Source: an uncultured Kiloniellaceae bacterium
GTDB lineage: Bacteria; Pseudomonadota; Alphaproteobacteria; Kiloniellales; Kiloniellaceae
NCBI GenBank assembly: GCA_947493695.1
Contig: CANLSF010000003.1
Coordinates: 124,001-188,000, forward strand
Length of the DNA stretch: 64,000 bases
Direction: 5' to 3'
This document shows, in pieces, positions 13,379-55,444 of the stretch. Numbering within the stretch: the first letter of the stretch is position 1; every line of letters begins with the position of its first letter. The notes under the pieces are model-generated. The model was not told where the DNA came from. It saw nothing but the letters and a program-made list of their open reading frames with translations, and made no database searches. Both the position numbers and the translations under genes were made by a program.

Positions 13379-14398
13379 TCAGACCAGGGGTTGCTGCTGG
13401 GTAATGCAGTGAATGCCGCCGCCGCCAAACGCAATGTCGTTTGCATCCACGCTCACGACCGAACGGTTCGAAAAGACTTCAGAAATAATCTCGAAAGCGC
13501 GTGTGTCCTGCGAGTCTTCGAAGGACGGCATCACAATCCCGCCATTCGCAATATAGAAGTTGATGTAGGACCGGCTCAGCCGCCTTCCGTGATCGTCATT
13601 CATCCGATCAGGCTGAGGCACCTCGATCACCTCAAGGGCGCGGCCTTTTGCATCCACCGATGCTCTAAGGCGGCTCACGTTATCTTGCAGCGCAGTGTAG
13701 TTCTCGTCGCTCGGGTCGTCGCTTGAAAGCGCCAGGACCACGCCCGGCGCGGCAAAACAGGCGAGGTTATCGATGTGACCATCGGTCTCGTCATCAATCA
13801 GTCCCTCATTCAGCCAGATCACCGTCGAAACACCCAGATAAGCCTGCAGTTTCGCTTCGATATCAGAACGCGACATCTCCGGGTTACGATTAGGGTTCAA
13901 CAGGCACTGTTCAGTCGTCAGTAGCGTGCCCTCCCCGTCCACATGGATCGAACCGCCTTCCAGAACCATGTCCGCGCTGAACACGGGAAGGTCCAGATGT
14001 TCCAGGATCGCCGTGGCCGTCTGCTGGTCCTTGGCGTAGTCGCTGTATTTTTCGCCCCAGGCATTGAAGCCCCAGGCCACGCCCGCCAACTCACTGCGCT
14101 CGTTTGCCAAAAAGCTGGGACCGGTGTCCCGGGTCCAGGAATCGTCATGCGGGATCGGCAGGCAGCCGACACCCGATCCGCATCGCAGAGACACCTCTGC
14201 GAGGTCCTGCGGATTCGCAATCATCGTGACCGGTTCAAACTGAGCTATTGCATTGGCGACTTCGGCATAGGCTTCCTGGGCCACCTCCAAACGGTCGCCC
14301 CAAAGAGCCTCTCGGCACGGCCATGCCATCCAGCATCTACTGTGGGGCATCCACTCGGCGGGCATGAAATACCCGTCATCACGTGGCAGTGTCATCAA
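13379..14398 (-). CDS. aguA: Agmatine deiminase
   Basis: A member of the peptidyl-arginine deiminase/agmatine deiminase family that converts agmatine to N-carbamoylputrescine and ammonia in polyamine synthesis. The 339 residues begin with PAEWMPHSRCWMAWPC and contain DDSWTRDTGPSF, the substrate guanidinium contacts, EGGSIHVDGEGTLLTTEQC, and the catalytic cysteine in GGGGIHCITQQQP near the C terminus. Length is close to the 350-370 typical of the family. No N-carbamoylputrescine amidase (aguB) gene is adjacent, so the second step would be encoded elsewhere. Confidence 0.93.
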   Translation of the reverse strand: MMTLPRDDGYFMPAEWMPHSRCWMAWPCREALWGDRLEVAQEAYAEVANAIAQFEPVTMIANPQDLAEVSLRCGSGVGCLPIPHDDSWTRDTGPSFLANERSELAGVAWGFNAWGEKYSDYAKDQQTATAILEHLDLPVFSADMVLEGGSIHVDGEGTLLTTEQCLLNPNRNPEMSRSDIEAKLQAYLGVSTVIWLNEGLIDDETDGHIDNLACFAAPGVVLALSSDDPSDENYTALQDNVSRLRASVDAKGRALEVIEVPQPDRMNDDHGRRLSRSYINFYIANGGIVMPSFEDSQDTRAFEIISEVFSNRSVVSVDANDIAFGGGGIHCITQQQPLV

Positions 14399-39696: not shown

Positions 39697-39813
39697 TCCA
39701 AACGTAAGCCAAAGCCAAACCAGAAAGTGACTCTTTCAAGACCGCTGGAACCTGTAGTTAGCTGAGCTTATACTGTATATCGATGTAACATGGCTCATAG
39801 CGGCGCAGACATA

Positions 39814-41070
39814 ATGAAGTTTTTCCGAACGAGTTTCTTACTCACATTCGCCTTCTGGCTGACGGTTTCCCTTGAATCGCCGACTTCAGCGCAAGATATG
39901 CTGCGCCCTGCAGCCGTCGTAAACGATGAGGTTATCTCGGTTCTCGATCTGACGCAGAGAGCCAGGCTTACCCTGCTTGCAACCCGTCAGGAAGACGGCC
40001 CGGAAGTTCGTCGGCGCCTGATCCCACAGGTTTTACGACGTCTGGTCGACGAACGTCTTCAGTTGCAGGAAGCTGAACGGCTGGAAGTCATTGTGAACGA
40101 CCGGCAAGTGGAAGCCGCGCTCACGGATCTTGCAAAGCAGAACAAGATGAGCCGTGACCAGTTTGTCAGTTTCCTCCGGCGCAAAGGCGTGCTGGCAACA
40201 ACGATTTCAGACCAGATCCGCGCCCAGATCGCCTGGTCCGTGGTGGTTTCCCGGCGGCTGCGTCCCTCGGTGACCATTTCGGACGAGGAAGTGCAGGAAG
40301 TGGTCGACCGCGTCTCTACGACCGCAGGCGCTACCCAGCGCCGGATCGGGGAGATTTTTCTGGCCGTGGAAAACGCCCAGCGCGAGGCCGAAGTCAGAGA
40401 GAACGCCCAGCGGCTTATCACCCGTCTTCGAGAGGGCGCTAATTTTGGAACGCTGGCGCGACAGTTCTCGCAGGCTGCCAGTGCCTCACTTGGCGGAGAT
40501 CTGGGCTGGGTGTCTCAGGGAGAGCTCCTGCCCGAGCTGGATCAGGCGCTGTCATCCTCGCCTCCCAACAATATAGTCGGCCCCATTCAAACAACTTCCG
40601 GATTTTACCTCCTCAATTTCATTGAGCAGAGACAGAGCGGCCAGGAAGAGACGCTTAGTCTCAAGCAGGTCCTCTTCGCCCTGCCCGCAAATCCAACCGC
40701 GGAACAGCTTGAAGGCGCGCGAACCCGCGCCACAGGCGTTCGCGCGCAGCTGGTCAGTTGCGAAGCAGTCGACGAAGTTGCGTCAGCTATTGGCAGCCCG
40801 GGATCCGGTGATCTGGGAACCGTCAAAACCAGCGAGCTTCCGGCAGCACTTCGGGCCGCGGTTCAAGACCTGGCGACTGGCGAACCCAGCCAGCCCGTCG
40901 AGGTTTCTGGCGGCATCTCAGTTCTGGTGGTTTGCAGCCGTACCGGCAGCGACGCCGGTGTTGATCGCGCAAAGATCATCACCACACTCACCAACCAGAG
41001 GCTCGACGTTCTGGCGCAGCGTTATCTTCAAGATCTGCGCAGAACAGCCAACGTGGATATCCGTATATGA
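39814..41070 (+). CDS. surA: SurA-type periplasmic peptidyl-prolyl isomerase/chaperone
   Basis: It helps fold outer-membrane proteins such as LptD. The 418 residues start with a signal peptide (FLLTFAFWLTVSLESPTSA), followed by the SurA N-terminal helical domain (VVNDEVISVLDLTQRARL), then one clear PpiC rotamase domain (GEIFLAVENAQ...GGDLGWVSQGELLPEL) and a second, weaker one toward the C terminus. ATG at 39790 would add eight residues. Its stop overlaps the ATG of the pdxA remnant, which shows the original operon lptD-surA-pdxA-rsmA. Confidence 0.92.
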   Translation: MKFFRTSFLLTFAFWLTVSLESPTSAQDMLRPAAVVNDEVISVLDLTQRARLTLLATRQEDGPEVRRRLIPQVLRRLVDERLQLQEAERLEVIVNDRQVEAALTDLAKQNKMSRDQFVSFLRRKGVLATTISDQIRAQIAWSVVVSRRLRPSVTISDEEVQEVVDRVSTTAGATQRRIGEIFLAVENAQREAEVRENAQRLITRLREGANFGTLARQFSQAASASLGGDLGWVSQGELLPELDQALSSSPPNNIVGPIQTTSGFYLLNFIEQRQSGQEETLSLKQVLFALPANPTAEQLEGARTRATGVRAQLVSCEAVDEVASAIGSPGSGDLGTVKTSELPAALRAAVQDLATGEPSQPVEVSGGISVLVVCSRTGSDAGVDRAKIITTLTNQRLDVLAQRYLQDLRRTANVDIRI

Positions 41071-41275
41071 GCGCAGAGGCCGGACTCCACAGTACGCCGG
41101 AGCCTGGACAAGCCTTGGTCGTGACGTTGGACACACCAGCGCGTATTGGCGGCGACGTCGCTCTAAAAGCCCGGCAGACAACATGATCGCGGCGTTGCAG
41201 ATGACGGGTGCCATGGCGGCGAACCGCTCGCGTTGCGGAACCTCAGTTCCACCTCACTCGATCCAGAGTCCATAG
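41067..41275 (+). pseudogene. pdxA: pdxA remnant with large internal deletion
   Basis: 4-hydroxythreonine-4-phosphate dehydrogenase (vitamin B6 synthesis) normally lies between surA and rsmA. Here an ATG overlapping the surA stop starts a 39-codon frame whose residues 16-36 contain ALVVTLDTPARIGGDVALKA, a clear match to the PdxA N terminus (ALTMGEPAGIGGEIALKAW type), then stops at 41184-41186. From 41174, in another frame, ADNMIAALQMTGAMAANRS matches the usual PdxA C terminus (SLIAALRMAAxMAARR type). About 280 middle residues, with all metal and substrate ligands, are gone. The junction is near 41169-41176. The gene cannot make an enzyme. Confidence 0.85.
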
Positions 41276-41286
41276 GATACACGGCC

Positions 41287-42150
41287 ATGCCGTCATCATC
41301 CGACACACCGCCGCAGACTGCCAAGTTACCGCCTTTGCGCGAAACCATTGCCAAATATGGTCTGGGCGCCCGCAAAGCGCTTGGTCAGCACTTCCTGCTC
41401 GATATCAATCTGACACGCCGTATCGCGCGTTCAGCCGCGCCGCTGGATCAGGGTACCGTGATTGAAATAGGCCCTGGGCCGGGCGGATTGACACGCGGGC
41501 TTCTGGAAGAAGGCGCCCGTAAGGTCATCGCCATAGAAAAAGACAGTCGCTGCCTGGAAGCGTTACGGGAGCTTGCCGAGGCCTATCCGGGACGACTTGA
41601 ACTGATCGCCGGTGATGCGCTGGAAATCGACATCAGTCAGCTTGGCGAAGGCCCGCGCCAGATCGTCGCCAACCTGCCCTACAACGTCTCCACGGCCCTG
41701 CTGGTTCAATGGTTGGCGCTTTTGAACAAAGATCCCTCTACCCTTACTGCGATGACCCTGATGTTCCAGAAGGAAGTCGCCGAGCGCCTTCACGCAGTAC
41801 CACGCAGTAAGGATTATGGCCGTTTGTCGATTCTGACGCAGTGGCTGTGCGAGATCAGCCTACTCTTCGATGTGCCGAAGCAGGCGTTTACACCGCCCCC
41901 TAAAGTGGTCTCGACAATCGCTGGCTTGAGACCGCGACCCAAACCGCTTTCACCAGCAGACATGCCAAGCCTCGAACGGATTACCGCGGCGGCATTCGGC
42001 CAGCGTCGAAAGATGCTGAGACAGAGCCTGAAGAGTGTTGCAGAGAACCCGTCCAGCCTGCTCGCTGGCTGCGATATCGAAGAAACCAAGCGGGCCGAAG
42101 AGCTCTCGGTCGAGGATTTTTGCGCCCTCGCCCGGGCGGTGAAGCAGTAG
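41287..42150 (+). CDS. rsmA: 16S rRNA (adenine1518/1519-N6) dimethyltransferase
   Basis: KsgA/RsmA dimethylates two adenines near the 3' end of 16S rRNA during small-subunit assembly. The 287 residues show AKYGLGARKALGQHFLLD, the SAM motif VIEIGPGPGGLTRGLL, and the catalytic NLPYNVSTALL. ATG at 41287 was chosen; the frame runs back to 41233 through the pdxA scar. It is convergent with gmk. Confidence 0.95.
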   Translation: MPSSSDTPPQTAKLPPLRETIAKYGLGARKALGQHFLLDINLTRRIARSAAPLDQGTVIEIGPGPGGLTRGLLEEGARKVIAIEKDSRCLEALRELAEAYPGRLELIAGDALEIDISQLGEGPRQIVANLPYNVSTALLVQWLALLNKDPSTLTAMTLMFQKEVAERLHAVPRSKDYGRLSILTQWLCEISLLFDVPKQAFTPPPKVVSTIAGLRPRPKPLSPADMPSLERITAAAFGQRRKMLRQSLKSVAENPSSLLAGCDIEETKRAEELSVEDFCALARAVKQ

Positions 42151-54280: not shown

Positions 54281-55444
54281 ATGCAGAACCAACGCTCAAG
54301 TTCCTCCCTGGAAAACTCCATTGCTTTGCGCGCCGGCGGGCTGCTGACGATCGACCTGGCAGCGCTGCAATCCAACTACCGAAGGCTCTGCGATGAGATC
54401 GGCCAGAATGTGGCTTGCGCCGCGGCTGTAAAGGCCGATGCTTACGGTCTAGGTGTGGTCAGAGTTGGACCAGCCCTAGCGGAAGCAGGGGCGCGGAGGT
54501 TTTTTGTCGCTCATTTCGACGAAGCTTTGACTTTAAAGAGCGCGTTGGCAGCGCAGACTGCGGTCGACGTCCATACTGGTTGCGAGATTTTTGTGCTGAA
54601 CGGCCTCATCGCAGCCCCTGCAGAGGAGTTTGTGGCTCACAACATCCGGCCGGTCCTCAACAGCCTCGGCGAAGTCGACAGCTGGCAGGGCCTCGCCAGG
54701 GCCAAAAATCAGATCTTGCCCGCCGCCCTTCATGTGGATACCGGCATGTGCCGGCTCGGCCTGCCCGATAGCGAGTATCAGGCATTACAATCGTCGAAAG
54801 AGCAGCTCGAAGGCATAGATCTTCGTGTAATCATGAGCCACCTGGCCTGCGCAGACATGCCCGATCATCCTTTGAACCGACAGCAGCTAACGGCCTTTCA
54901 GCAGATCCGTGCAGCCTTTCCGGACACTCCGGCAAGCTTTGCAAACTCTTCAGGTATCTTCCTGGGACCTGAGTATCACTTTGATGTCGCCCGGCCCGGT
55001 GTCGCGCTCTATGGCATAAATCCCTTGCCGGGACATGTGAACCCGATGAGACAAGTGGTTCGTCTAAAAGGTAAAATCCTGCAACTGCGCGAGATTGACG
55101 CCTCTCAGAGCGTTGGGTATGGTGCGGCTTATCAGGCAGCCGGTCCGATGCGGATTGCAACGGTGGCTGTGGGTTACGCGGATGGTTACCTGCGTGCCTT
55201 ATCTGACCGAGGGCACGCCTGGATCGGCGATCGCCGTGTGAATGTGGTGGGACGCGTATCCATGGATCTCCTGGCTTTAGACGTAACCGCGATCCCCGCA
55301 GATGACGTGGTTCCGGGTACTTTTGTGGATCTGTTCGATCCGGAAATTGGCGCCGACGCGCTCGCCGCTGAGGCAGGCACAATCGGTTACGAAATCCTGA
55401 CCGCGCTCGGACAGCGCTATCACCGCGAATACCTGGGCACCTGA
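54281..55444 (+). CDS. alr: Alanine racemase
   Basis: A PLP enzyme that makes D-alanine for peptidoglycan. The 387 residues have the PLP lysine in CAAAVKADAYGLG, the second catalytic tyrosine region in SVGYGAAYQA, HVDTGMCRLGL and the C-terminal domain GRVSMDLLALDVT. The first 18 residues are an unconserved extension. It depends on PLP, of interest since pdxA is broken in this window. Confidence 0.95.
   Translation: MQNQRSSSSLENSIALRAGGLLTIDLAALQSNYRRLCDEIGQNVACAAAVKADAYGLGVVRVGPALAEAGARRFFVAHFDEALTLKSALAAQTAVDVHTGCEIFVLNGLIAAPAEEFVAHNIRPVLNSLGEVDSWQGLARAKNQILPAALHVDTGMCRLGLPDSEYQALQSSKEQLEGIDLRVIMSHLACADMPDHPLNRQQLTAFQQIRAAFPDTPASFANSSGIFLGPEYHFDVARPGVALYGINPLPGHVNPMRQVVRLKGKILQLREIDASQSVGYGAAYQAAGPMRIATVAVGYADGYLRALSDRGHAWIGDRRVNVVGRVSMDLLALDVTAIPADDVVPGTFVDLFDPEIGADALAAEAGTIGYEILTALGQRYHREYLGT

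Follow-up and report, generated by a model that had tools for sequence, protein, structure and literature searches.

The closest described counterpart of the locus reported here is the canonical PdxA system (TIGR00557, NF003699, PF04166), in which pdxA occurs in the gene order lptD-surA-pdxA-rsmA. The remnant studied here resembles it in position, in its overlap with the surA stop codon and in the presence of alignable ends, but differs in that about 865 bp are missing, the frame is shifted and motif residues are altered, so that it is not functional. A second system of relevance is that of the PdxA2-type proteins, for which the role used in our comparison is taken from two publications (PMC9997740 and PMC7954711). 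Denise et al. 2023 (PMC9997740) suggest that PdxA2 serves B6 synthesis where PdxA is missing, and state that PdxA2-type proteins are hard to annotate from sequence as B6 or catabolic enzymes. Their case, as presented there, and ours have in common that canonical PdxA is lost while a paralogue and PdxJ are retained; ours differs from theirs in that the deleted gene can still be seen, and that two lineages of one genus appear to be without pdxA separately. The idea of a takeover is already in print in that paper; the present case contributes a scar that can be seen alongside intact congeners, two probable losses within one genus, and a named candidate for the replacement. None of the entries listed in our literature searches showed this scar.

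The window, i.e. the whole stretch of 64,000 nucleotides that was analysed, corresponds to C3:124001-188000 of genome G000, which measures 6.46 Mb in 20 contigs and is 99.86% complete. Three congeners (G001, G002 and G003) were used for locus comparison, and the genus of all four is taken to be Pelagibius. The gene order in the window is lptD-surA-[pdxA remnant]-rsmA, and gmk and yicC are encoded on the opposite strand (the names lptD, gmk and yicC were assigned by eye). The upstream neighbour surA (39790..41070, plus strand, as are all parts of the locus given below) is an open reading frame with SurA_N and PPIC rotamase domains (PF09312, 7.7e-17; PF00639, 4.3e-26), and the downstream neighbour rsmA (41287..42150), encoding the 16S rRNA dimethyladenosine transferase, matches PF00398 (5e-53). 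Elsewhere the window encodes alr (54281-55444), as the original prediction had it, and on the minus strand, at 13379-14398, a Porphyromonas-type peptidyl-arginine deiminase family protein (PF04371, 8.6e-127), which is presumably an agmatine deiminase.

Between surA and rsmA, an ATG at 41067 overlaps the surA stop codon, and the same arrangement is found for the intact pdxA genes that occupy the orthologous position in G002 and G003. This ATG opens a reading frame of 39 codons (41067-41186) that translates to ...VVTLDTPARIGGDVALKARQTT*, with the stop ending at 41186; its part from 41067 to 41180 is the 5' arm of the remnant, identified by alignment to the pdxA genes of G002 and G003, in which the GEPAGIG motif is altered at three residues. 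A second frame, from 41165, translates to ...NMIAALQMTGAMAANRS..., a PdxA-like C terminus, and contains the 3' arm (41169..41228; MIAALQMTGAMAANRS), the frame of which differs from that of the 5' arm. The two arms meet at the deletion junction (41169..41180), an imperfect direct repeat of which the relatives carry two copies: GCCTGGCAG near the start of pdxA and GCCCGGCCAG near its end, at a distance of 864 bp in each of G002 and G003. The window retains a single copy, GCCCGGCAG, which lacks one base relative to the 3' copy and therefore leaves the PdxA C terminus out of frame. Compared with G002 and G003, the locus has thus lost about 865 bp by one internal deletion, which removed the catalytic body, as had been predicted, and shifted the frame. 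The ribosome-binding region of rsmA survives: sequences compared by eye show a non-aligning stretch followed by the rsmA leader (41229..41286), with an AGGA-type ribosome-binding site that is common to all four congeners.

The original prediction named a lack of PdxA similarity for both fragments in profile searches as a refutation, and with curated profiles this is formally the outcome. The two remnant pieces (39 and 33 residues) matched no family in Pfam and none in NCBIfam at E<=10, so that the proof rests on DNA orthology with the congeners, which decides for pdxA. Alignment to G002 pdxA gives scores of 25 for the 5' arm and 35 for the 3' arm, compared with maxima of 18 and 16.5, respectively, among 1000 mononucleotide shuffles of each; both the N-terminal remnant and the C-terminal remnant in another frame are thereby upheld, except that the latter had been extended over 41174-41275, whereas PdxA homology on this side is recognisable only to near 41228. 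Among 26 loci with pdxA beside rsmA, G002 and G003 give the best scores for the 3' arm (35 each, the next being 23). For the 5' arm across the same loci G002 leads with 25, but L015 ties with G003 at 23 and L027 reaches 22, which makes this arm by itself a weak witness of orthology. Compared with the loci of the two other PdxA genes of G000 itself, the arms score 11.5-15. The motif pattern TxGxPxGxG is present in 22 of the 26 intact PdxA pieces; the first 60 residues of the other four contain no match, in at least one case because the piece starts past the motif. The three altered GEPAGIG residues of the remnant point to decay and speak against a mis-assembly. On these comparisons, the surA-rsmA region is almost certainly a deletion scar, i.e. 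a pseudogene, of canonical alphaproteobacterial pdxA.

Among the matches listed, the best 80 named rsmA loci were surveyed for the intact order; pdxA was found just upstream of rsmA in 69 and was missing in 10, the remaining locus being too short to judge, in agreement with the ancestral order surA-pdxA-rsmA that had been assumed. Within the order, canonical-type PdxA (scoring over the NF003699 cut-off) is encoded in 45 of 61 genomes, which include neither G000 nor G001. A comparison by hand placed 42 of these 45 relative to rsmA, all of them within 1 kb of it; the comparison gave no placement for those of G007, G079 and G080, and in G007 surA lies upstream of pdxA. The originally suggested comparison of close relatives, which found the gene intact in G002 and G003, revealed only 63 bp between surA and rsmA in G001, with neither pdxA nor the start codon of the remnant. 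Phylogenetic analysis of 36 proteins (13,313 columns) recovers the order (G001,(G000,(G002,G003))) with full support, and the data reject a grouping of G000 with G001 (AU p 0.00014). A six-gene tree shows the same within-genus order, which a three-gene tree (RsmA, Gmk and YicC) does not resolve. The branching order of the 36-gene tree implies that pdxA was probably lost separately in G000 and in G001, unless the gene was lost once, early on, and then regained by the ancestor shared by G000, G002 and G003. An AU test with PdxA rejects g1+g2 as a single clade (p 0.015), but RsmA, Gmk and YicC reject this clade likewise (p 0.039), so that we deduce no transfer of pdxA from it.

The original prediction reasoned that the organism must have another PdxA, a salvage route or PdxS/PdxT, and called for a search of the remaining genome. 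This search yielded two further PdxA-family genes, two pdxJ genes and a PdxH C-terminal domain, but no PdxS; the latter (PF01680) was detected in none of 58 genomes, and in 10 of 14 controls. The product of the first PdxA-family gene, C4 (L033; G000:C4:190270), scores 376.9 with TIGR00557, over the cut-off of 290.35, and 347 with NF003699, the alphaproteobacterial PdxA model, below the cut-off of 378, and is therefore not canonical by this model. In an alignment it keeps PGHTE, NPHAGE, YHDQG, the asparagine of VNIT and the arginine of RTS, which we take to be the substrate and metal motifs of PdxA. The product of the second gene, C5 (L034), remains under the TIGR00557 cut-off with 245.8. PGHTE is absent both from C5 and from a comparable G001 gene, and in both the asparagine of VNIT and the arginine of RTS are altered; a C5-type protein was judged unlikely as a replacement, since PGHTE is absent, the asparagine is replaced by S and the arginine is lost. 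C5 adjoins DapA-like and enolase-superfamily genes (by eye from translations).

The neighbours of C4 encode a LysR regulator, a DUF1537-type kinase (PF07005, PF17042) and a protein that carries a cupin at its C terminus and weakly matches a TIM barrel. The solved structures nearest to C4 by phmmer are D-threonate 4-phosphate dehydrogenase and PdxA2 (6e85, 2hi1), which suggests a catabolic origin of C4. C4 is thus like the PdxA2-type system in its nearest structures and in its adjoining kinase. The C4 clade differs from that system in grouping with canonical PdxA rather than with two PdxA2 references, at moderate support (SH-aLRT 91 and 86) and with long-branch warnings, in the TIM-barrel partner, which adjoins the C4-type gene in seven of eight clade members (the exception being G034), and in that no kinase was found beside the C4-type genes of G001, G034 and G063 (loci of 7.5, 7.0 and 3.9 kb). 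The sole DUF1537 match of G001 lies on another contig than its C4-type gene. More distant PdxA paralogues have this type of kinase nearby in G036 and G056, both of which also encode canonical pdxA, and for such a paralogue in G044 none was present in the fetched locus.

The TIM-barrel-like protein is encoded just 3' of the C4-type gene (L033:4176-5234, L035:4078-5136, L061-L064, and L185:2397 onward). Its barrel part weakly resembles phosphoribosyl isomerase A, and a C-terminal cupin is present in six of seven loci; the protein of G063 has no cupin and continues into a PALP-type PLP-dependent enzyme domain, and that of G000 gave no NCBIfam match.

In the trees, one branch (SH-aLRT 99) sets off 26 canonical PdxA proteins (25 encoded beside rsmA, and that of G007 next to surA at the end of a contig), and another (99) sets off six C4-type proteins. 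Neither of the pdxA-keeping congeners, G002 and G003, has a C4-type gene. In genus g4 such a gene occurs in four of nine genomes, all nine of which keep canonical pdxA, and in these four, as in G000, it adjoins the DUF1537-type kinase. Between G000 and G001 the C4-type proteins share 69% identity, less than 35 of 36 core proteins do, and their genes may for this reason be separate acquisitions. Two other genomes, G034 and G063, have surA directly before rsmA, no pdxA at that place, and a retained PdxJ. Their single PdxA match each joins the C4 clade (SH-aLRT 96), and lacking any other PdxA they are counted in favour of a takeover by C4-type proteins. We infer that a catabolic gene of the C4 clade became a B6 dehydrogenase in some lineages.

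We propose the following explanation. The removal of about 865 bp from between two imperfect short repeats took away the catalytic body of pdxA and shifted its frame, and the loss of the gene would have been tolerated through a second PdxA-family dehydrogenase, C4. The latter would oxidise 4-phosphohydroxy-L-threonine to supply two PdxJ enzymes and PdxH, by which de novo B6 synthesis via the deoxyxylulose-phosphate route would continue. That C4 covers the PdxA step in G000 is a prediction towards which we lean slightly, from motif conservation and clade membership; the explanation as a whole, i.e. a pdxA scar with a paralogue sustaining de novo B6 synthesis, we regard as modestly favoured. Counting against the part ascribed to C4 are its nearest solved structures, its score below the NF003699 cut-off, the low identity of the G000 and G001 proteins, the moderate support for the position of the clade, and the genomes, described below, that encode PdxJ but gave no PdxA match.

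An alternative, which we consider unlikely, is that de novo B6 synthesis has been lost and the organism lives by salvage, PdxJ and PdxH being leftovers or salvage enzymes. In its favour, twelve other genomes, six of the order and six named, have PdxJ and no PdxA match, and G027, in which PdxA and PdxJ are both missing, still has the PdxH domain. G000, however, has two pdxJ genes without internal stops, its pdxJ2 protein is 85% identical to that of G001, and the genome is large and nearly complete. G001 likewise has two pdxJ genes, and G002 and G003 have one each. In G000 and G001 the second pdxJ (L046:10224-10985; L047:8695-9690, reverse) lies between purC and a gene taken by eye for a chemotaxis receptor; the corresponding site of G002 and G003 cleanly lacks it. 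A tie between the second pdxJ and the loss of pdxA is not claimed, as G007 has two pdxJ matches together with canonical pdxA. Near the other pdxJ type, a GntR/MocR-like regulator gene was seen by eye in G033 and G009 (L056:7800-9299, L057:4171-5601). Two further genomes, G032 (L075) and G045, have a distant PdxA-family protein and neither a PdxJ match nor canonical PdxA, and are possible B6 auxotrophs with a catabolic paralogue.

Less probable still is that PdxJ receives its substrate from an enzyme that bears no relation to PdxA, both here and in PdxA-free relatives, with the C4 paralogue being catabolic only. The six members of the order that encode PdxJ yet gave no PdxA match (G025, G026, G042, G046, G048 and G057; 59-100% complete) accord with this possibility, in particular G025, a single contig of 100% completeness, as do six of the nine named genomes lacking pdxA at surA-rsmA (L146, L150, L151, L159, L170 and L172). 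PdxS is absent from the six genomes of the order, and in four of them (G025, G026, G046 and G048) surA directly precedes rsmA. In such genomes, the step making the PdxJ substrate would appear to have no known enzyme. Among the genomes of the order with PdxJ but without canonical PdxA, ten in number when G039 and G043 (PdxA fragments at contig edges) and G078 (for its PdxJ status) are set aside, three have a C4-clade member, six have no PdxA match and one has a C5-type protein only; loss of pdxA does not, therefore, require a C4-type paralogue. On the other hand, the fetched pdxJ neighbourhoods of the PdxA-free genomes, examined by eye, contained no consistent extra gene that could be a candidate, and the sole PdxA of both G034 and G063 is of the C4-clade type.

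It is very improbable that the remnant is retained as a leader of 39 codons coupling translation of surA to that of rsmA. Its start overlaps the surA stop and the ribosome-binding region of rsmA is retained, as such a role would have it, but the short G001 spacer lacks that start codon and conserved residues of the 5' arm have decayed. An assembly error with pdxA intact in the cell is scarcely credible, for although short repeats flank the deletion, the locus is internal to a contig of 697 kb, the altered GEPAGIG residues are those expected of a decayed gene, no other canonical pdxA was found in G000, and the congener G001 is also without the gene.

A deletion scar of pdxA with C4 taking over its step is thus the reading we prefer. 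More tentatively, and with low confidence, the PdxA step may have been displaced repeatedly in alphaproteobacteria, by a C4-type protein with its TIM-barrel partner in some lineages and by an unrecognised enzyme in the PdxA-free ones. The C4-type paralogue would then once have belonged to a kinase-bearing catabolic operon, and Pelagibius would show both stages. A genus with two pdxA-less lineages and congeners that keep pdxA is a natural knockout with matched controls. Such a genus allows a specific paralogue, C4, to be tested as the replacement, and it directs attention to relatives for which no enzyme of the PdxA step is known.
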